Shown: positions 7,485 through 22,777 of the stretch, piece by piece
Layout of the letters: every line of letters begins with the position of its first letter
Numbering within the stretch: the stretch's first letter is position 1
Assembly (NCBI RefSeq): GCF_000092205.1
Contig: NC_014216.1
Location: 1,240,001 to 1,304,000 of the forward strand
Reading direction: 5' to 3'
DNA from: Desulfurivibrio alkaliphilus AHT 2
GTDB taxonomy: Bacteria > Desulfobacterota > Desulfobulbia > Desulfobulbales > Desulfurivibrionaceae
Length of the DNA: 64,000 nt
The notes under the pieces: generated by a model
Database searches by the model: none
Seen by the model: the letters and a program-made list of their open reading frames with translations, nothing else
What the model was told of the DNA's origin: nothing
Program-made: the position numbers and the translations under genes

Positions 7485-9302
7485 TTGGCAACAGCACTAA
7501 AAGGGACTTACCGGGGCCAATCCTTGCAGGAAAAACAATCATATAACGATTCACTGATCAAGGTTCTGGTGGTGGAGGACGAACCTGGTGATGCTTTGCT
7601 GGTCCAGCGCACCCTGCTGGGGGCCGGCTCGGGGCGTTATGCGGTGGAAACCGCCGCCAGCCTGGCGGAGACTCGCCAGATCATCGCCGGCCGCCAGCCC
7701 GACGTGCTGCTGCTGGATTTGGCCCTGCCCGACTCCACCGGCCTGGAGACGGTGGAAAGCGTACGCCGGCAGGCGCCGCAAACCCCCATCGTGGTGCTCA
7801 CCGGCCACGATGACGAGGAACTGGCCCAGGCCGCCCTGGAGGCCGGGGCGCAGGATTATTTAACCAAAAACACCCTGGGCAGCTACTCGCTGAGCCGGGC
7901 CATCCGTTACGCCGTCACCCGCGCCCGCCTGGAAAACCGCCTGCTGGAATCCAACCGGCGGCTGGAAAACCTGCTGGATGAGGTGCGCAGCCTCAACACC
8001 TACGATGCTCTGACCGGGCTGCCCAATCGCCGCTACCTGCTGGAGCAGTTGGAGCGCGATATTGCCATCCACGCCCGGGCCGAACAGTACGGCGCCCTGC
8101 TGGGTATCGACCTGGGCAATTTTCGCACCGTCAATGACACCCTGGGCAACGACATCGGCGACCTGCTGCTGGTGGAAACCTCCCGGCGCCTGGGTTTCTC
8201 CGTGCGGGAAACCGACACCGTGGCCCGCTTGGGCAGCGACGAATTTGCCGTCATTCTCGATCATCTGGGCCCCGATTACAACCAGGCCGCCGTCAAGGCC
8301 GAAGAGATCGCCAAAAAAATTCGCCGCACCATCAATCGGCAATTTTCCCTCAAGGGCCATGAGTGTCATGTAACCTGCTGCATCGGGGTTTGTATTTTCG
8401 GCCGCCGGGATGAGCTGTTCGACGAACTGCTGATCCGGGCCAATGTCGCCACCTACCAGGCCAAAAAGAGCGGCCCCAACACCATCCGCTTTTTTGACGA
8501 AGCCATGCAAAGCGCCCTGGAAGAACGGGCCCGCCAGGAAGCCGAGTTGCGCCAGGCCCTGAAAGAAAATCAACTGCTGCTCTATTTCCAGCCCCAATTC
8601 AACGGCACCGGCCGCCCCCGCGGCGCGGAAGCCCTGGTGCGCTGGCAGCACCCCAGCCGTGGTCTGGTGGCGCCGGCGGAATTCATTCCCCTGGCCGAGG
8701 AAACCGGCCTGATCCAGCCCATCGGCCGGATGATCCTGGCGCAGGCCTGCTCCCGGCTCAAAGAATGGCAGGAACAGCCCGAACTGGCCGACCAGGTAAT
8801 GGCGGTAAATATCAGTGCCCACCAGTTTCATCAGGCCGATTTTGTCGATCAGGTCCGGGAAGCCCTCACCACCAGCGGGGTGCGCCCCCAAGGGCTGAAA
8901 CTGGAGCTGACCGAAAGCGCCCTGCTGGCCGACCTGCGCGATGCGATCAGTAAAATGCAAACCCTGGTAGAAATGGGGCTTAGCATCTCCCTGGACGATT
9001 TCGGCACCGGCTACTCCTCTCTTTCCTACCTGAAAACCCTGCCGGTCAATCAACTGAAAATCGACCGCTCCTTTATCGCCAACGTCACCAGCGACCCCAG
9101 TGACGCCGCCATTGTCCGGGCAATCCTGGCCATGGCCGCGGAACTGGAAATCGAAGTGGTGGCGGAAGGGGTTGAAGATGAACGGCAACTGGCCTTTTTA
9201 CAGCAACACAACTGCCGTATCTTCCAGGGTTTCCTCTTTGCCCGCCCGATGCCCGCCGACGATTTCTGCCAGCTCGTAAAAAAAACCCCAGCCACCGCTT
9301 AA
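7485..9302 (+). CDS. response regulator with GGDEF and EAL domains
   Basis: A soluble 605-residue protein. The N-terminal receiver (residues ~25-145) has VLVVEDEPGD, phospho-acceptor Asp in LLLDLALPD, and the conserved Lys in DYLTKN. A GGDEF domain follows with the variant GSDEF at residues 250-254, which may not be catalytic. The EAL domain is complete by motif: GAEALVRWQHP, NISAHQF, LELTES, DDFGTGYSS, LKIDRSF, AEGVED. The likely role is phosphorylation-controlled c-di-GMP hydrolysis. The start is uncertain: 7485 is a TTG without a clear ribosome site, and a second TTG at 7524 is equally possible. No partner kinase is adjacent. Confidence 0.9.
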   Translation: MATALKGTYRGQSLQEKQSYNDSLIKVLVVEDEPGDALLVQRTLLGAGSGRYAVETAASLAETRQIIAGRQPDVLLLDLALPDSTGLETVESVRRQAPQTPIVVLTGHDDEELAQAALEAGAQDYLTKNTLGSYSLSRAIRYAVTRARLENRLLESNRRLENLLDEVRSLNTYDALTGLPNRRYLLEQLERDIAIHARAEQYGALLGIDLGNFRTVNDTLGNDIGDLLLVETSRRLGFSVRETDTVARLGSDEFAVILDHLGPDYNQAAVKAEEIAKKIRRTINRQFSLKGHECHVTCCIGVCIFGRRDELFDELLIRANVATYQAKKSGPNTIRFFDEAMQSALEERARQEAELRQALKENQLLLYFQPQFNGTGRPRGAEALVRWQHPSRGLVAPAEFIPLAEETGLIQPIGRMILAQACSRLKEWQEQPELADQVMAVNISAHQFHQADFVDQVREALTTSGVRPQGLKLELTESALLADLRDAISKMQTLVEMGLSISLDDFGTGYSSLSYLKTLPVNQLKIDRSFIANVTSDPSDAAIVRAILAMAAELEIEVVAEGVEDERQLAFLQQHNCRIFQGFLFARPMPADDFCQLVKKTPATA

Positions 9303-9401
9303 ACTCTTCAGCCACGCAATGGCCGCAACCTTGATTTTTCCGGGCGGCCAGTGCTGTTTTGTGTTATTTTAGTCACTTTTTAATTGGAAAAGTGTGCACC
9401 C

Positions 9402-11408
9402 ATGTTAACCATCCAGAATCTCTCCATCCAATTCGGCGACAAGCACCTGTTCAAGGAAGTGTCGGCCCGGGTCAGCCCCCAGGATCGCATCGGCCTGGTG
9501 GGGGTTAACGGGGCCGGCAAATCCACCCTGATGAAGATCATGGCCGGCCTCCGGCTGATCGATGAAAAGGTGGTGAGCCGGGCCAAACGCGCCACCGTGG
9601 GGTATCTGCCCCAGGAGCTGGAAGGTTTTGCCCCGGGCCGCACCCTGTACCAGGAGGCGGAAAGCGCCTTTGCCGAGGCGCTGGCCCTGCAGCAAGAACT
9701 CGATGAGGTCAACGGGCAACTCTCTACCATAACCGAGGCCGACCCCGACTGCCAGGCCTTGCTGGAGCGCCAAGGGGAGCTGCAGGACGCCCTGGAGAGC
9801 CAGGATATTTTTCGCATTCGCTCCCAGGTGGAAAAGGTTTTGGTGGGGCTTGGTTTCAAGGAAGAAGAATTCGATAAAGACTGCCACGCCTTTTCCGGCG
9901 GCTGGCAGATGCGGCTGCAACTGGCCAAGCTGCTGCTGGCCCGCCCCGCCTTGCTGCTGCTCGATGAGCCCACCAACCACCTGGACCTGGAATCGCTGAC
10001 CTGGCTGGAGGATTTTCTGCAAGGCTACCAGGGCGCCCTGGTGATGATCTCCCACGACCGGACCTTTTTAAACAACATCTGCAACGCCATCTGGGAGTTG
10101 AGCCTGGGCAACCTTACGGTTTACAAGGGCAACTACGACCAGTACCTGCGCCAGAAGGAAGAGCGGCTGGAGATCCAACGGGCCGCCTGGGAAAACCAGC
10201 AGGCCAACATTCAGCAGACCATGCGCTTTGTCGACCGCTTCCGGGCCAAGTCCACCAAGGCCAGCCAGGTCCAGAGCCGGCTCAAGCAACTGGAAAAAAT
10301 GGACAAGGTGGAGCTGGAGGAAACCGAGGCCAGGGTGGACTTCCGTTTTCCGCCGGCCCCGCCCAGCGGTCGCCTGGCCGTGGAGGTGCGGGGGCTGACC
10401 AAAAACTACGGGCCGCTTAAGGTCTTCAACGGGCTTGATTTCATTATGCAGCGCGGCGAGAAGCTGGCGGTGGTGGGGGTCAACGGGGCCGGTAAATCCA
10501 CCCTGGTCAAAATCATGGCCGGTCTGCTCCGCCCCGACGGCGGCGAGGTCCGTTTCGGACACAACGTCAAACCATCCTACTTCGGCCAGCACCAGGCCCA
10601 GGAACTGGACCCGGAATTAACGGTCTTCGACACCGTCTTCCAGGCCACCCCCAACCTCACCGTAACCCAGGTTCGCTCCCTGCTGGGCGCCTTTCTCTTT
10701 CGCGGCGAGGATGCCGACAAACGGGTTTCCGTCCTTTCCGGCGGCGAAAAAAGCCGCCTGGCCCTGGCCAAGATGATTGCCGTGCCGGCCAACCTGCTGA
10801 TCCTGGACGAACCCACCAACCATTTGGACATGGTCTCCCAGGAAGTGCTGCAGGAGGCCATGGACCGTTACGACGGCACCATCATCGTGGTGTCCCATAA
10901 CCGCCATTTCGTCAACGCCTTTGCCGGCAAGGTGCTGGAAATCAGCCAGGGCCGGGGCACCATGTACGAAGGCAACATCGACGAATACCTCGACAAGGTT
11001 CGCCGGGATCGGGAGGCCGCCTTAACCCCAACCTCGGCGGCAACCAAGCAGGACCGCGCCCCAGTTGGGGACGGGTCGCCCGGCGCCACCGAGCCGGGTG
11101 GGCAGCGGGCCAGCGGTCACGGGGGCAAGGAGGCGCGCCGCCGGCAGGCGCAAGAACGCCAACGGCTTAATCAACTCCTGGGACCGCTGCGCAAAAAAGC
11201 CGCCCAAGCGGAAAGTGAAGTAGAAAAACAGGAGCAGCGCAAGGATGAACTGGAAAAACTGCTGGCCGACCCGGAAATCTACCACCGCCAGGAGGAATTT
11301 GCCGAGCTGAGCAAAGAGTACGCCGAACTGGAACGCCGCCTGGAACGCCTTTACGACCAGTGGGAAAAAGTAAACAGCGAAATCGAAGAGATCCTTACTT
11401 CTGCTTGA
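9402..11408 (+). CDS. ABC-F family ATPase (Uup/YheS-like)
   Basis: A 668-residue protein with two ABC ATPase domains and no membrane segments. The first has VGVNGAGKSTLMKIM (Walker A), FSGGWQMRLQLAKLL (signature) and LLLLDEPTNHLDLES (Walker B). The second has VGVNGAGKSTLVKIM, LSGGEKSRLALAK and LILDEPTNHLDM. A charged linker lies between them, and the C-terminal ~90 residues form a predicted coiled coil after a low-complexity stretch. ABC-F proteins act on ribosomes or DNA rather than in transport; the C-terminal coiled coil points to the Uup/YheS branch. ATG at 9402 is preferred over TTG 9384, having GGAAAAG at a suitable distance. Confidence 0.9.
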   Translation: MLTIQNLSIQFGDKHLFKEVSARVSPQDRIGLVGVNGAGKSTLMKIMAGLRLIDEKVVSRAKRATVGYLPQELEGFAPGRTLYQEAESAFAEALALQQELDEVNGQLSTITEADPDCQALLERQGELQDALESQDIFRIRSQVEKVLVGLGFKEEEFDKDCHAFSGGWQMRLQLAKLLLARPALLLLDEPTNHLDLESLTWLEDFLQGYQGALVMISHDRTFLNNICNAIWELSLGNLTVYKGNYDQYLRQKEERLEIQRAAWENQQANIQQTMRFVDRFRAKSTKASQVQSRLKQLEKMDKVELEETEARVDFRFPPAPPSGRLAVEVRGLTKNYGPLKVFNGLDFIMQRGEKLAVVGVNGAGKSTLVKIMAGLLRPDGGEVRFGHNVKPSYFGQHQAQELDPELTVFDTVFQATPNLTVTQVRSLLGAFLFRGEDADKRVSVLSGGEKSRLALAKMIAVPANLLILDEPTNHLDMVSQEVLQEAMDRYDGTIIVVSHNRHFVNAFAGKVLEISQGRGTMYEGNIDEYLDKVRRDREAALTPTSAATKQDRAPVGDGSPGATEPGGQRASGHGGKEARRRQAQERQRLNQLLGPLRKKAAQAESEVEKQEQRKDELEKLLADPEIYHRQEEFAELSKEYAELERRLERLYDQWEKVNSEIEEILTSA

Positions 11409-15321: not shown

Positions 15322-17814
15322 CTAAGATCGGCGGCCGGCAGGTGGGGTCACCGTCAGTTCCTGCTCGCTGATGGCCCGCTCCTGGTAGTAGAAGCGGAGT
15401 TTCCAGAGACCGTTGACGTTGTTCGCCTCGGGGGGGATGGTATGCGAAATCAGTTGGCGGCGGCCGTTGTGCACCGTCTGCCGCTGGCTGGCCACCTGGC
15501 GGCCGTCGGGACCGAACCAGCGGATTTCCAACTCCAGCGGGCTATCGGCGGGGATGAAATTTACCGCAAACAGGGCCCCGAAGGTAACCCCCGGCCGGCC
15601 GGGGATGCTGTCCGGGGCCGAGGCAAACAACTGGCGGCGCAACAGGGCCGCCTCGATATTGCTGGACTCACCGATCACCCTTCCCAGTTCGCTCATCCCC
15701 TGGTACTGCTCGGCAATCATCCCGGCCCCTTCAATATCCACCCCCCAGATCTTCACCGGCCGTCCATCATCACCACCGGTCGCTTCTTCTTCCAGCATCA
15801 GGGCCGCCAATGTGGCCGACTGCTCGGGCCGTGAATCATCACCGGCCTTGGGCTCGTACCCCTGGGCCTGATCCAGCATTCTTGCTTTGTCGAGATTTTT
15901 AACATTGAACAGGCTGGCCCGGGTGAGGTTGGCCTCGGCAAAGACGGCCCGGTTGAAATCGGCGTCATTGAGGCTGGCGCCGCTTAAAATCGCCCCGGAA
16001 AGATCGGCGTCGGTGAGATTGACCCAGCGCAGATCGGACCGGCTGAGGTTGGCCCGGGCGAGATTAGCCTGGCGCAGATCGGCATTGCTCAGGTCGGCAT
16101 CGGCCAGGTCGGCATCCCGCAAGTTGGCGTTGACCAGGTTGGCGTTGCGCAAGTCGTAACGGATCATCCGGCCGCCCAGGGAAACGGCGCTGCGCAGGCT
16201 CTGCAGTACCGAGGCCCCGGCTCCCAGGTTGACCCCGGTAAGATTGGCCTCCCGCAGGTCGGTATTGCTCAGGTCGGCATCCACGATGGTGGCCCAGGAG
16301 AGGTCGGCCCGGTTCAAAGAGGCATGGCTCAATCGCACCCGCCGGAGATTAGCCTCGCGAAGCACCGCCCCGGTGACAATGGCATTGCTGAGATCAGCCC
16401 CATGCAGGTCGGCCTTCTGCAAAGAGGCGTTGGTCAGGTTACCCCGGATCATCGAGACCCGGGAAGTCAGGTCGGCCCCATCCAGGTTGGCATTGGTCAG
16501 GTTGGCCTCCAGCAGCTTGGCCCCGGCCATTATTGCTTCACTGAACACCGCGGCGGTGAGGTTGGCCCCGGTGAAATCGGCCTGGCTGAAATCCGCTTGC
16601 TGGGCCGCCACCCGGGTCAAATTGGCGGCCCGAAAATCGGCATTTCTGGCCACCGCCGACAGCAGCCGGGCCCCATGGAGGGTACCGCCGGCAAATACCG
16701 CCTTGTCCAGCCGGGCACCGGCCAGATCGGCGGCACTGAGATCGGCCTCCAGCAGGCTGGCGTCGGTGAGATCCACCCCACGTAAATCGGCCCCATAAAG
16801 GTTGCTCCCGGCTAGATTAGCTTTGACCATCTTTACTCCGGCCAGGGCCAGCCGGCTTAAATCGGCCCCCTCTAAAACTGCTCCGGCCAGGTTGGCCTGC
16901 TGAAAAACCCCGCCGGTAAGATCGGTGCCGCTGAAAATAGCCCTGGAAAGATCGGCGCCGCTGAAATTGGCCTGCCGCAATGTGGCCTCGCGAAAATCGG
17001 CCCGGCGGGCGTCAGCATGGCGGAAATCGCTTTCGCTGAACAATACCTGCCGCAAATCCGCCTGCCGCAAGCGGGCCTGGCTGAAATTGGCCCGGGAAAG
17101 ATCGGCCCGGCGCAGGTCCGCCCCACCCAAATCGGCCAAAGCCAGGCTGGCTCGCGCCAGGTTGGCGTCCACCAGCTTGGCCTCCCGCAAGTCTGCCTCG
17201 CTGAGGTCGGCGTGCATCAAGTCCGCCCGGCTGAAATCAGCACCACGCAAGTTGGCCCCTTGCAGGTTAACCCCATGCAGACGGCTATCGGCAAAGTTCA
17301 CGCCCCGCAGATCCAGCCCGGCCAGGTTCAGGGTGCTGAGGTCTTTCCCCTGCAGATTGCGATCTCCAGCCAGGGCCTGTTGCACCTGGCCCATGGCGAT
17401 CTGTTCCCGGGCCTCGAGGTCATCCAGCACCGCCGGGGCCGCGGGTGGGGCCGGAATCATCATGGTGGCAAAGGGGAGCCTGGAGGCCAGCGGTTGCTTG
17501 CCGCCCTCCCCCATCAGATAACCGGCCAGGGCCGCAGCGCCCACCAGCAGCAGAATCCCGGCCACCGTAACCCCGCGCCCGGGGCGCAACCATGGCCGCC
17601 GGTGAGCCGGTCGTCCCGCTTTGGCCTGCTTCACCGCCTGCACCGGAGCTGCAGCCTGGACCTGCCCTTTGGTTTTGCACTGCGGGCAGGGAACGGTTTT
17701 ACCGGCATGACGCCCGGCCACCTCCCGCCTGAAATCACAGGCCGGGCAGTGGAAAACCGCCGGCGGCTCCGCCGCCGCCCCTTCCGGGTTCTGTTTGGTA
17801 ACTGGTTGTTTCAT
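15322..17814 (-). CDS. membrane-anchored zinc-ribbon protein with very long pentapeptide-repeat domain
   Basis: An 830-residue protein. An N-terminal zinc ribbon has Cys pairs at 23/26 and 43/46 (FHCPACDF, VPCPQCK). Arg-rich sequence then precedes one membrane helix (about 81-101), predicting the ribbon in the cytoplasm and the rest outside. Roughly residues 152-668 are pentapeptide repeats of the A(D/N)Lxx type, e.g. ANLRGADFSRADLMHADLSE, about 100 in a row. They should form a right-handed beta-solenoid of some 25 coils. The C-terminal ~150 residues look like a beta-sandwich (LELEIRWFGPDGRQV, GLWKLRFYYQ). Function is unknown. It is divergent from a penicillin-binding protein gene, which hints at an envelope role. 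Confidence 0.85.
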   Translation of the reverse strand: MKQPVTKQNPEGAAAEPPAVFHCPACDFRREVAGRHAGKTVPCPQCKTKGQVQAAAPVQAVKQAKAGRPAHRRPWLRPGRGVTVAGILLLVGAAALAGYLMGEGGKQPLASRLPFATMMIPAPPAAPAVLDDLEAREQIAMGQVQQALAGDRNLQGKDLSTLNLAGLDLRGVNFADSRLHGVNLQGANLRGADFSRADLMHADLSEADLREAKLVDANLARASLALADLGGADLRRADLSRANFSQARLRQADLRQVLFSESDFRHADARRADFREATLRQANFSGADLSRAIFSGTDLTGGVFQQANLAGAVLEGADLSRLALAGVKMVKANLAGSNLYGADLRGVDLTDASLLEADLSAADLAGARLDKAVFAGGTLHGARLLSAVARNADFRAANLTRVAAQQADFSQADFTGANLTAAVFSEAIMAGAKLLEANLTNANLDGADLTSRVSMIRGNLTNASLQKADLHGADLSNAIVTGAVLREANLRRVRLSHASLNRADLSWATIVDADLSNTDLREANLTGVNLGAGASVLQSLRSAVSLGGRMIRYDLRNANLVNANLRDADLADADLSNADLRQANLARANLSRSDLRWVNLTDADLSGAILSGASLNDADFNRAVFAEANLTRASLFNVKNLDKARMLDQAQGYEPKAGDDSRPEQSATLAALMLEEEATGGDDGRPVKIWGVDIEGAGMIAEQYQGMSELGRVIGESSNIEAALLRRQLFASAPDSIPGRPGVTFGALFAVNFIPADSPLELEIRWFGPDGRQVASQRQTVHNGRRQLISHTIPPEANNVNGLWKLRFYYQERAISEQELTVTPPAGRRS

Positions 17815-18085
17815 CGCCCCACACTTATTTGCTACCAGATCTGTAACTCAAACAAAGATATTATTGTACCTGCGGCTGCCGCCACCTGCCATAGCATATC
17901 GGCATTCCCCGGCGGCACCTGAGAACTTTTCCGCCAATTATCCCCCTTTTGTTTTGCCTGGCATCACCCGGGTCGGTTATATTCACCCCCGGGCGGCAAC
18001 TTGCCGACAAGTTAGTAATCGTTCAGCCGCACCATTAAATAATCCGTACCTGCAACCTGAACAGGCTTACCGGCAGATCGTTATC

Positions 18086-20941
18086 GTGAGCAGCCCCAAA
18101 GATCAAAAAACCACCGACCAGGCAACCGGCACCGCCAAACAATCTGCGGCCGCCGGCCGGCAGGACTCGCGCCGGCGTGACCCCCGGGAACAGGCCCTCA
18201 AATACAAGGCCTTCAAACACACCTTTTCCGAGGACGCCATCCGCCGCGGTTTAAGCGACAAGGCCCTGGACAAAAAATTGCGTCGCAGCAACAGCCTGGT
18301 GGAACGCTACCGGCATTACCTGGAGTTGCGCCAGCAGGCCGGGCTTGTCAACCTGGCCTACCCCTGGCGCAACCCCTTCAACTGGCTGATGTTCGCCACT
18401 TTTTTCTGGCTGCCGCGCGTGCTGCGCTGGGGGGTGCTGACCCTGCTGGCTTTGCTGGCCATCAATTACATCCCAGGCCCCACTCAGCATATTGTGGAAA
18501 TCCTGGCCGCCCGGGCCGTCTACGACACCGCTCCCATCGCCCGTCTGCCCGCCAGCCTGGAAAGCTATGCCCATTCGGCCCGGATTGTCGACCGCCAGGG
18601 CAATACCATCAAGTCTTACGGGCGGCGCCAGGTTACCCTGGAGGTGCCGGAACCGGCCAGAAAAGCGATCCTGGCCTGTGAAGACCACTACTTCCTGCCC
18701 CACGATGCTTATCCCTGGTATGTTAATGCCTTCCTGATTCACCCCGGGGTAAGTTGGTTCAACATGGCCGGTGCCGTCCGCGACACCCTGCGCGGCACCC
18801 CCCGCGGGGCCAGCACCGTGGTCATGCAGAACGCCAAAAAGATTCTGGGCAATACCCAGCGGACGGTGGCCAACAAGCTGGAGGAGATCATCCTGGCCTA
18901 CATGATGGTGGCCCGTTTCGGCAAAGAGCAGAACCTGGATTTTTATATCAACACCGTGCCGGTGGGGGCCAATATTTACGGCCTGCCGGCGGCCGCCGAG
19001 AGCTATTTCCGCAAAGACCTGGAGGAACTTAACTACCAGCAACTGGTGGCCATCGGCGCTTTCATTCCCAACCACTTCCGCCAGGTCGCCTTTTACCGGA
19101 TCGTCAACGGGCGGAATTTCGACGAGCTGGACCCCAACCTGGCCGGCCATGCCCGGGCCGCCATCAACAAGGTCAACCTGGCCCTTGCTCATCTCCACCG
19201 CCTGGGGGAGATCAGTGAGCGCGAATACCGGCAGTGGCGCTTGCACGACGAGGAATCGATCCGCAACATCGGCTTCCGCGACTTTCGCTCACCCTTGTAC
19301 GGCGAAGAGGAGTGGACCTCGTGGAACGTTATCCGGGAAGTAACCTCACGGAGCTACCGGATCAACGGCCGCGAAGTCAGCGGCAGCCAACTGCTGCTGG
19401 ACCAGCCGGGCGATGTGGTCATCGAAACCGCCATCGACCTTAACCTTACGGAAAACGCCAAAAAGATCATTGACGACTTTCTAAACTCGCCTGAATATCG
19501 CAATGTCCTGCGCCGCAGCAACCGCAATCTGTGGCGGCGGGAACTGGCACGCTACGACCACCTGCCCCGCCAGGCCCCTTTCGAAGATTTTGCCGGCTTT
19601 ATGGAGCAGCTTGAACGGCACCTTAATGTCGGCGTCATCGCCGTCAATCAGCACGGAGAAATAGTCTCTTACGTGGGCGGCAAGGAGTTTGGCGGCGCCG
19701 AGGGGGCCGCCAACCTGATCGCCGCCGAAACGGACAATACCGACGGAACCGATGGCCAGGCCGCCTCCCCGCCCCGCCCGGTGATCATCGACCTGATGAA
19801 CCGCCGGGCCACCGTAACGCCATCCTCCACCATCAAGCCGGTGGTGGGTTACTACGCCATGGTGGCCGCCGATGTTAAACCGGAGCACACCTTTGCCGAC
19901 GAGCCGGTGGAGTTCAAGTACATGGAGGAAGAAGGGCGGCAGATCTGGCTGCCCCGCAACTGGTACGACTACGACCAGCGCGGCAGCGGCAACAACCGTT
20001 ATCGCGGCCGGCAATACAGCCTGACCGAGGCCCAGGTGCTGTCGGTAAATACCATCTTCGCCCGGCTCTACACCAACCGCCTGGTGCAAAACGCCATGCT
20101 CAGCGCCTTCGACCGCCTCGGCCTGGAGTACAACCGGGAAGATGCCCGCTACTGGCCCTTCGGCATCGGCGCCACCGACCTGCCGGTGCAACAGTGGCTG
20201 GCGGTTTACAACGCCTTTCTGGACGGCTTTTACCGGGAACCGACCTTTGTCAGCCGAATCACGGTCAACGACCGGGTGATCTACCAGCGAGCCGAAGACC
20301 CGGCCTTGCGCCCCCTGCCGCTTTTCGATGCCCGGCGGGAGCGGGAGGCCAGCCTGAAAATTTTACATGAAGTGGTCAGCCGGGGCACCGGCGTAGCCAT
20401 GCGGGACAACTTCCCTTACTTCCGCAACCTGGTTTCCGGCAAAACCGGCACCGCCCCCCAGGGGCGCTCCTCGCTGTTTGTCAGCCACTTCAACCCGCAG
20501 CGGGACCGCGGCCGTTACCAGGATGAAACCCTGACCATGATGGTGCTTTTCACCACCAATACCGGCGGCTTTAAAAGTGTGGGAATGTCCAGCGAAGGCC
20601 CGGTTAAAGTGGCCGGCGAGATTTACAACCACCTTTTTCAGCAACGCCTGCAAGAGATGATGGACCGCAAAATCGACCAGGCCCGCCAGGACAACGCCCA
20701 TTTTCGCAACAACCACGTCTACTGGGCCAACGTCAACCGGTACCTGGACACGCTGCTTAACGACCGTTGCCCGGACAGCCGCCACCATATCCATGAATAC
20801 GTGGTGGGAGTTGACGGCTTTGCCGAGGCGGTGGAACAGATCCTGAGCCCCAACAACCAGATTTATACCGGCCGGGACGAAATTTTCAACGCTCTGGTCC
20901 GCTACTATTGCGACCAGGAACGCATAATCCGTATCGACTAA
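18086..20941 (+). CDS. class A penicillin-binding protein (GT51 plus transpeptidase)
   Basis: A probable bifunctional peptidoglycan synthase, 951 residues from GTG 18086. One membrane segment (about 102-130) is followed by a transglycosylase domain: [11 protein letters not shown] (catalytic Glu199) and [15 protein letters not shown], a variant of the usual GGSTITQQ motif, then [11 protein letters not shown]. The transpeptidase motifs are all present: STIK at 581-584 (nucleophile Ser581), SVN at 653-655 and KTG at 786-788. The ~100-residue Lys/Arg-rich N-terminus before the membrane helix is long. The frame stays open further upstream, but that stretch overlaps the divergent gene. The true start is uncertain because GTG 18086 lacks a good ribosome site. 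Confidence 0.85.
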
Positions 20942-20967
20942 CCGAAATAAAAAGGAGAGCGGCAACC

Positions 20968-21528
20968 ATGGCTAAAATAGGACGCAACGACCCCTGCCCT
21001 TGCGGCAGCGGCAAGAAATTCAAAAAATGCTGCCTGGAAAAACAGCGCCTGGCAGGGCGCACCCCGGCCGCGGCCAGCCAGCCGCCGTCACTGACCGGCG
21101 AGATCAAGACCCTGCAGGAAGCCGCCGCGGGCCGGCAGGTGCTCTTTAAAACCCTGGGGGTTTTTGTGCTCTTCACCACCCAACCGGGTGATGCCTGGGT
21201 GCTGGAGGTTACCGAGATGGACGCAGTGCAGGTGGCCCGAGAAGGCGAAGCCATCGCGGTGGAAATCGAGGAGACCCCCGAGACCCTGGAGATCAACTGG
21301 ACCCACCGCTTCCAGCTTACCGACAAAGGCCGGAAGCTGGAGCTGGAAAGTTATGCCGATCAGGGCACGAGCACCATTCCCCAGTGCCCCACCCAGCAGA
21401 TCCGGGCCGCCGTGAAAAAGATCAAGTCCCGGCTCTCGCCGGAGTTGCTGGAGTCGATCCACCTGCAGCAACAGCAGGAAGAAGAAAATGCGCTGAGGCG
21501 AGGGGTTAAAAGTAGTAGCCGAAGTTGA
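20968..21528 (+). CDS. SEC-C motif protein
   Basis: A 186-residue protein starting with [22 protein letters not shown], split here as MAKIGRND and [13 protein letters not shown], the zinc-binding SEC-C motif also found at the end of SecA. The remainder is acidic and mixed alpha/beta without a recognised domain; it may be a small-molecule or protein adaptor. The ATG at 20968 has AAAGGAGAG 8 bases upstream, favouring it over an upstream frame extension. It lies 26 bp after the penicillin-binding protein gene, probably in the same transcript. Its last 23 bases overlap the convergent porin gene. Confidence 0.8.
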
Positions 21529-22693
21529 TATTGAAGCGATACTCCCACTTATCGTCGGGGTTGGCCCCGAAGCGCTCCCAGCCGGAGGTGTTGCCGACAA
21601 AGTCGTTACCGTTGGAGTAGGCCAGATCGGTGTAGCTGTACCAGTTGCCGCGGGCCCAGGCCGCTCCGATGACCAGCATTTCGCTGTCGTTGAAGCCGCT
21701 CTCGGTCTTCATCAGCGAGCTGTACTCAATGTAGGGCAGCAGGTAATCCAGCCAGTCCAGGCCCGGGGTTTCCAGGTAATAGCTTAACGATACCGCCGGA
21801 ATCCAGGCCTCGGCCGCTACTTCCGTGGTGTAGTCGTGGGCGCCCATTTTCACCAGGGTATCGGTGCCCAGGGGCTGATCTTCGTCCACATCATATTTGT
21901 AGTAGGTCAACTGGGTGGCCAGGGTCCAGTTCTGCCATTTGGTCACCACGTGCAACGAGCCGGCGTAATGATCGCCATCGCTTTGCGGGCCGTTGCTCTT
22001 CAACTGGCCGTACTGGGCTGAGGCGCCAAGGTCCAGGGCCACCCCGGCGGCGGTGGTTAAGTGATAAATACCGCGGATATTGAACTGGTTGCGCTCCTCA
22101 TAGCCATCCCCGCTGGTATCGACCACGTCGTAGGAGTAACGGGCGGCCTTGGTATTGCTGCCGGCGTAAGCCCCTTCATCGGCATAATAGTAGGCGACAT
22201 CAAGGGTCCAGTTATCGAAGGGCCGGGTGTATTTGACCCCCAGGTCCATATCGTCGGCCAGCCCCACGTAGTAGTGCTGGTCGAACATCCAGCTCTGGGA
22301 CACCCCGTAGGGACCGGGGCCGAAGGGCACCCGGTTGACCCCCACCTGCAGTTGCGCATCATCCGGGAAGTTGTAACCCAGCCAACCGGTGTGGAGAAAG
22401 TGATAGCCGTCGTAGAAACGGTACTCGACCTTGCCCACCCATTGATCCTGGGCGTAATCCAGGTTGAGCCGGAAGGTGTCCAGGGTAAAGTTGCCGCCAT
22501 CCCCTTCCGCCCGGGAGGGGGAACCGATTTCCGGCTCATAGTCGCCGATGGTGTAGTTAACCCGCATGGCGCCGCCCAAGGTGAGCGGGCCGAGTTCAAT
22601 GGAGGCGGCAACCGGGGTCGGCAGCAGCAGCCCCGCGGTCAGCAGGCCGGCGGTCAGCAGGCTGCCGCCGGTTTTGGCAAAAATTATCCGCAT
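21506..22693 (-). CDS. outer-membrane porin-like beta-barrel protein
   Basis: A 395-residue exported protein. The N-terminus ([10 protein letters not shown], then [19 protein letters not shown]) is a signal peptide, probably cut after AAS or VAA. The mature part alternates hydrophobic and polar residues with many aromatic strand ends ([30 protein letters not shown]), and it ends in NINFGYYF with the terminal Phe used by the BAM machinery. These are the marks of an outer-membrane barrel. Substrate is not readable. The ATG at 22693 has CAGGGGAG nine bases upstream; an ATG 30 bases earlier is less likely. It may function with the adjacent BCCT transporter, with only 84 bp between them. Confidence 0.82.
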
Positions 22694-22777
22694 GGTTGTT
22701 TTCTCCCCTGTGGTTATGTTCATGTCTGTTTTCCTGGCTGGGTACCCCGTAATCGCTTCCCCTTCTGCAACGGGCCG

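Follow-up and report, generated by a model that had tools for sequence, protein, structure and literature searches.

Actin-guided peptidoglycan synthesis is a known kind of process. In the elongasome, it involves an actin filament (MreB), a single-pass membrane partner (RodZ or MreC) and a peptidoglycan synthase (PBP2). Activators of class A PBPs include the outer-membrane lipoproteins LpoA and LpoB and the small membrane protein MacP. Volactin of Haloferax volcanii belongs to another actin family (PF25216). It is reported to form dynamic filaments in cells, the tips of which bind the membrane, and to act in the change to the disk shape (PMC10869688).

The window analysed here is a stretch of 64,000 nucleotides from Desulfurivibrio alkaliphilus AHT 2 (NC_014216.1, positions 1,240,001 to 1,304,000). 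On its minus strand, positions 15322–17814 form an ORF of 830 aa with an ATG start, which encodes a zinc ribbon, a membrane helix, a pentapeptide rod and an Ig-like domain, according to ORF analysis, Pfam and an AlphaFold2 model. Judged by genome comparison, the gene of this rod protein behaves as a unit with the genes of a divergent class A PBP and a Volactin-family actin. The reading favoured here, with a probability of about 0.55, is that the three proteins constitute one wall-synthesis module, in which the rod protein would bridge the membrane and its rod would set a fixed reach. No description of such a module appeared among the titles and abstract openings listed from the open-licence literature on pentapeptide repeats, volactin, class A PBPs and the organism.

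Architecture of the rod protein

A sequence-only reading of this DNA had proposed the order zinc ribbon, membrane helix, pentapeptide repeats and C-terminal beta domain. This order is borne out by Pfam, by invariant cysteines and by structure prediction, which had been suggested as a check and returned a confident solenoid and an Ig-like C-terminal domain. The full-length AlphaFold2 model was built from 31 aligned family members, the window's protein included, to which the relatives are 34–44% identical, except for one at 87%. The model has a mean pLDDT of 80.9 and a pTM of 0.59; at this pTM, the placement of the domains relative to one another is not fixed.

The zinc ribbon (residues 16–56; 17647–17769, minus strand), predicted to be cytoplasmic, is modelled at a pLDDT of ~90. 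The Pfam scan gave no above-cut-off match for it; its cysteines C23, C26, C43 and C46 are invariant in 31/31 aligned members. Most relatives possess two zinc ribbons (four CxxC), of which the genus of the window retains the membrane-proximal one only. The membrane helix (residues 83–100; 17515–17568, minus strand) is predicted from the model and the charge bias to have its N-terminus inside. Within 20 residues, lysine and arginine are more frequent before this helix than after it in 58 of 61 rows, a count that includes duplicate genomes. This positive-inside charge supports the envelope location proposed earlier, and the periplasmic position of the solenoid stays a prediction. A proline-rich linker, which is poorly modelled, and a further helix (residues 129–149; 17368–17430, minus strand) precede the solenoid.

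The layout had been considered unfamiliar. Its order of zinc ribbon, membrane helix and periplasmic domain has a precedent in the DUF3426 proteins, but we know of no protein of this layout with such a solenoid. Neither a DUF3426 nor a RodZ or MreC domain was detected in the rod protein by the Pfam scan (E ≤ 1).

The repeat region matches PF00805 (Pentapeptide) with an E value of 1.1e-105 and 344.9 bits against a cut-off of 20.2. About 96 repeat centres, forming ~24 coils, lie between residues 153 and 651, in agreement with the ~100 repeats and ~25 coils counted earlier, and are split by an insert at 530–552. A beta-helix solenoid fold is predicted. Its first part (residues 151–529; 16228–17364, minus strand) is modelled at a pLDDT of mostly 93–98 over residues 150–529, and its second part (residues 553–650; 15865–16158, minus strand) runs to ~650. 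At the rise of a pentapeptide solenoid, 4.8 Å per coil, a rod of ~24 coils would span ~115 Å. The loop/helix insert (16159–16227, minus strand) is poorly modelled over residues 531–550; it measures 23–24 residues and breaks the solenoid at the same site in 31/31 members.

The first solenoid block measures 379 residues in 13 of the 31 aligned members, 384 residues, equal to 379 plus one extra repeat, in 17, and 238 residues in one (L082). The second block, counted over residues 553–640, has 88 residues in 31/31. Across these members, the length of the N-terminal part ranges from 63 to 98 residues, that of the first linker from 39 to 50, and that of the second linker, which joins the solenoid to the Ig-like domain and is again poorly modelled, from 31 to 57. 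The aligner might mask compensating indels among similar repeats, but it cannot mask equal total lengths. Since the rod is constant and the linkers are variable, the comparison suggests that rod length is under selection. The length is not universal, because the rod of L082 is about seven coils shorter (238 + 88).

In permutations that treat the repeats as exchangeable, the exposed positions along residues 154–530 are more conserved on one face (p ~1e-4; 154–449 alone, p 0.001), and the distal end (495–640) is conserved as well (p ~1e-4); the best face by itself is not significant in 455–530 (p 0.07) or 555–640 (p 0.11). The conserved face carries a ladder of N-L-T at residues 398–400, 418–420, 438–440 and 459–461. 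At the distal end, the exposed residues R596 and W597 are kept in 29/31 and 30/31 members, respectively.

Foldseek matches of the solenoid are HetL (3.9e-12), NP275/276 (6.2e-10) and also Qnr and MfpA. By repeat content, the protein passes the NCBIfam equivalog cut-offs of HetL (NF047416; 265.1 bits vs. 260) and Alr5209 (249 bits vs. 125), so automatic annotation could misname it; the membrane helix, the ribbon and the Ig head are additional to HetL, a short soluble repeat protein whose cut-off is passed only just. The family scores of Qnr (141 bits vs. 240) and MfpA (121 vs. 360) are not reached. The net charge of residues 151–650 is −5 in the window's protein, with a mean of −8 over the 31 members.

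The C-terminal domain (residues 687–825; 15340–15756, minus strand) is tentatively DUF3859/MG2-like. Modelled separately, it forms an Ig-like sandwich (residues 688–823), with a pLDDT of mostly 82–95 over residues 51–190 of that model and one block at 70. The best fold match is PA1606 (PDB 3n6y; Foldseek 6.7e-6, Z 10.7, rmsd 3.7 over 115 residues), and macroglobulin/complement proteins and a xylosyltransferase are less close (Z ~8–9.5). The window's domain scores 13.4 bits against the DUF3859 (PF12975) cut-off of 24. Weak matches to DUF3859 occur in 14 of 30 members at E ≤ 0.1 (best 9.8e-5), and MG2 is matched by 16 of 30. A search of open-licence full texts yielded no literature on DUF3859.

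Distribution

A query made of the C-terminal 194 residues detected one homologue each in 28 of 58 near relatives, including the window's genome, and the gene is therefore not a chance reading frame. Open frames of 826–913 aa contain 26 of the 28 homologues; the remaining two lie at contig ends, in frames of 147 aa (G018) and 763 aa (G031). The earlier suggestion to search relatives for the architecture and its neighbours proved fruitful: a profile search located the rod protein in 42 of 257 genomes of the window's order, nearly always accompanied by the PBP and the actin. An even sample of the phylum gave matches in 8 of 395 genomes, six of them in the order and two being weak matches to other proteins. 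The latter, small proteins of G387 and a CHAT-TPR protein of G447, were rejected as relatives, as they share the domain type and not the architecture. The G387 proteins, of 173 and 177 aa, adjoin each other (L149, 2582–3103 and 3732–4265) at the places hit by the profile of the Ig-like C-terminal domain; Pfam assigns the first to DUF3859.

A single short peptide pattern, scanned against contigs, picked out 35 named loci. They come from Desulfurivibrio, Desulfurivibrionaceae, Desulfobulbaceae and MAGs labelled Deltaproteobacteria, Proteobacteria or Pseudomonadota, with one Desulfobacterales and one Desulfobacteraceae MAG among them (L079 and L082). Almost all relatives located belong to the window's order, Desulfurivibrio and its kin. 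Candidate relatives on plasmids were discarded: their 30 records showed local repeat matches only, and in no record did a single place cover 80% of the query. A relationship to the periplasmic fibre proteins of cable bacteria was likewise set aside: open-licence literature that pairs cable bacteria with pentapeptide repeats was not found, and none of the 35 locus record titles names a cable bacterium.

The divergent class A PBP and gene order

Divergently to the rod gene, the window encodes a class A PBP with GT51 and transpeptidase domains (17795–20941, plus strand). Translation probably begins ~100 codons downstream of the ORF start at 17795; untruncated relatives mostly measure 917–958 aa. 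Pfam recognises PF00912 (1.9e-30) and PF00905 (3.3e-8). The GT51 glutamates and the SxxK, SxN and KTG motifs are present in 33/33 PBPs. The protein stays below the NCBIfam cut-offs of PBP1A, PBP1B and PBP1C (TIGR02074, 156 vs. 509; TIGR02071, 60 vs. 718; TIGR02073, 79 vs. 494), and among the three GT51 proteins in the window's genome it has diverged furthest, as judged by GT51 score.

Neighbouring genes were grouped over 43 locus rows (the window, L021–L047 and L068–L082), among which L078 duplicates L042 and L077 duplicates L046. The rod and PBP genes are adjacent in 37 of them, with gaps of −22 to 651 nt and at most small ORFs between. Rows L022 and L024, dropped by ORF selection, hold the pair by their coordinates. 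The PBP side is cut off by contig ends in L046/L077 and L068, and other genes occupy it in L047. With the duplicate removed, adjacency is observed in 38 of the 39 loci readable on the PBP side. In L082, the rod, PBP (12-nt gap) and actin genes follow one another on one strand; the linkage of the three has thus outlasted a rearrangement.

The usual gene order is SEC-C, PBP, rod protein, actin, HrpA. In the window, the SEC-C gene (20908–21528, plus strand) overlaps the PBP gene at the 3' end of the latter and represents, by Pfam and neighbour comparison, a conserved flank outside the module. HrpA is found on the actin side in 24 of the 43 rows, over which the other neighbours are less well kept than the PBP and the actin. 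A 405-aa ORF at 21506–22723 (minus strand), adjoining a BetT-type BCCT transporter gene, has no match in Pfam (E ≤ 1) or NCBIfam (E ≤ 0.1).

The Volactin-family actin

On the side opposite the PBP, a gene for a Volactin-family actin occurs in 29 of the 43 rows, a figure that includes two duplicates, and one such neighbour scanned against Pfam matched PF25216 with an E value of 9.9e-89. This main partner, which tracks the same genomes as the rod protein, had been overlooked by the sequence-only reading. The actin gene lies at most ~4 kb from the rod gene in 30 of the 42 genomes that possess the latter. In 11 of the 42 (G000, G002, G009, G011, G024, G026, G030, G031, G230, G237 and G243), the two genes lie on different contigs or more than ~9 kb apart; the contig of G026 stops close to the rod gene. 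The genome of the window carries all three genes, with the actin at 864,206–865,291 beside HrpA (288.4 bits vs. the PF25216 cut-off of 35). As this actin gene stands beside HrpA and away from the rod gene, the usual order seems to be broken between the rod gene and the actin gene.

PF25216 is matched above the cut-off in 44 of the 257 genomes of the order and in 11 genomes of the phylum sample outside it. Around the out-of-order Volactins of seven of these 11 genomes, the other four being weak matches of 35–39 bits, the stretches fetched contain neither the rod protein nor the PBP (E ≤ 1e-4); in L145 and L147, the stretch stops at the actin gene. In L142 (G458), the neighbour of an out-of-order Volactin-family actin, encoded on the same strand, is a class A PBP other than that of the module (7646–9490 and 9894–11120), perhaps a second actin–PBP pairing.

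MreB itself is strongly matched (E below 1e-140) in 49 of the 58 relatives, including the window's genome, and the other nine show weaker or partial MreB-family matches. Given the strong matches, the module is to be seen as an addition to MreB.

Joint presence and absence

In the 257 genomes of the order, the rod protein was detected in 42, the actin in 44 and the PBP, scored by its C-terminal extension, in 46. Rod protein and actin occur together in 41 genomes, the rod protein without the actin in one, the actin without the rod protein in three, and neither in 212. The corresponding figures for rod protein and PBP are 41, one, five and 210. Fisher values for this co-occurrence are descriptive only, since genomes drawn from a single order cannot count as independent.

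Among the exceptions, three genomes scored as PBP-only (G057, G252 and G253) do have the rod gene beside the PBP gene, cut off where the contig stops. In G021, the PBP is truncated at the end of its contig (L034), and G003, a MAG of 77% completeness, has a partial actin alone. G250 (95% complete) and G252 (73%) have the rod protein and the PBP and no actin above the cut-off. In G005 (60% complete), the PBP gene lies beside purF, named by eye from its sequence, and the rod gene was not found. In G031, the rod and PBP genes are on separate contigs, and other genes adjoin the former. G240 retains a PBP remnant of 38–41 residues only.

The link with the divergent PBP, which had been proposed from the window alone, is supported by this shared presence and absence as well as by adjacency. 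In G240 (L133, 158–655 and 1035–4823) and G019 (L150, 803–1336 and 1432–5178), which belong to two different families, SEC-C and HrpA stand side by side and the three genes of the module are absent. The block has apparently been deleted in these genomes, judging from the retained flanks; later insertion of the block elsewhere may be the explanation instead. As a control, HrpA was found in 26 of the 27 genomes of the window's family. A close SEC-C homologue is present in G013, G016 and G019, all without the module, but this flank is not always independent: in G001 and G004, a close SEC-C homologue is absent along with the module. SEC-C and HrpA lie on different contigs in the module-less G013 and G016, G004 has HrpA only, and the stretch fetched from the module-less G244 gave no match; with flanks split, partly found or without match, these four genomes show neither scar nor remnant.

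A possible actin–rod–PBP module

The existence of an actin–PBP–rod module is well supported by these comparisons, while the topology, direct binding, bridging and ruler function are inferred. Points against this reading are the distant or separate actin gene in 11 of the 42 genomes, the genomes that have only part of the set, the shorter rod of L082, and the Volactins outside the order that have no rod protein or PBP of this type in the stretches covered. In the favoured mechanism, the zinc ribbon or ribbons would bind the actin filament in the cytoplasm. The membrane helix would cross the inner membrane, and the flexible linker and second helix would lead into the rigid rod of ~24 coils. The conserved exposed residues on one rod face and at the distal end may serve as contacts to the PBP or to an adjacent rod, and the Ig-like head would sit near the peptidoglycan layer. 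In this way, the actin would place or switch on a single PBP dedicated to it, and the rod, being of near-invariant length, would determine the distance from the membrane at which this PBP acts. The best-kept elements, namely the membrane-proximal ribbon and the length, face and tip of the rod, are those expected to serve as contacts and spacers of a bridge. An adaptor with a small cytoplasmic head would also suit filaments whose tips touch the membrane, as reported for the Volactin of H. volcanii (PMC10869688). A further-reaching version can be advanced only tentatively: a second, MreB-independent actin-directed machine in which Volactin filaments steer the class A PBP and the rod is the ruler that sets the height of the PBP or of the new glycan above the membrane.

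The rod protein could also be a dedicated regulator of the PBP alone, an activator or a periplasmic organiser in the manner of LpoA/LpoB or MacP, with an actin that merely shares its neighbourhood and lifestyle. PBP adjacency (38/39 loci) is indeed tighter than actin adjacency (30/42 genomes), and the window's genome pairs the PBP with the rod protein and has its actin elsewhere. This explanation is rather unlikely, since the presence of the actin tracks the rod protein as closely as that of the PBP does (41/42 each), also where the genes are unlinked, and L082 keeps the actin in its rearranged three-gene order.

A spacer or scaffold role had been suggested for the solenoid from the start, and the near-constant rod length fits a spacer; its action as such stays a prediction. 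Taken by itself, an envelope scaffold would tie the inner membrane and the peptidoglycan together at a set spacing, and the PBP and the actin would serve a special cell form without contacting the rod. The variable linkers and the Ig-like head agree with this as well, but a scaffold alone does not account for the tight gene pairing and the joint absence, which makes it improbable. A cytoplasmic pentapeptide protein, such as a DNA mimic like Qnr or MfpA, whose PBP linkage is a by-product of gene order, would explain the HetL and Alr5209 scores and the Foldseek matches and is nevertheless most improbable, given the membrane helix with its positive-inside charge, the Qnr and MfpA scores far under their cut-offs, the low net charge, the poorer conservation of other neighbours and the flanking genes that persist without the module; a DNA-mimic function of the Qnr/MfpA type was rejected on topology, score and charge.

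If the actin–rod–PBP module is real, it would join an actin, a membrane adaptor and a PBP in a system whose parts are unrelated to those of the MreB elongasome. An actin family that has been characterised in a haloarchaeon would acquire a role in bacteria, and pentapeptide repeats would acquire a structural one in the envelope. Because the repeat number is nearly invariant, the idea of a periplasmic ruler can be tested directly by removal or addition of whole coils.

Comparison with known systems

The PA1606 structure and probably DUF3859 share the fold predicted for the rod protein's C-terminal domain. PA1606 differs in sequence (14% identity), and its PDB entry is a stand-alone chain of 123 residues. 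HetL, NP275/276, Qnr and MfpA have the repeat sequence and the beta-helix solenoid that is predicted for the rod protein. The solved repeat proteins matched are chains of ~130–240 residues, whereas the rod protein combines ~96 repeats, a number that hardly varies, with a membrane helix, a ribbon and an Ig head.

LpoA/LpoB and MacP are dedicated partners of one class A PBP, as the rod protein would be; to our knowledge, they contain no solenoid of this kind. The Volactin of H. volcanii is of the same Pfam family as the neighbouring actin (PF25216) but archaeal, and the available part of its description mentions neither a PBP nor a pentapeptide rod (PMC10869688).

The proposed module most resembles the MreB–RodZ/MreC–PBP2 system, which also unites an actin-family filament, a single-pass partner with cytoplasmic and periplasmic parts, and a synthase. 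In the module, by contrast, the actin is of the Volactin family, the synthase is a class A PBP, and the partner carries a zinc ribbon and a pentapeptide rod. What sets it apart from known actin-guided wall synthesis is an adaptor of another make and an actin of another family.
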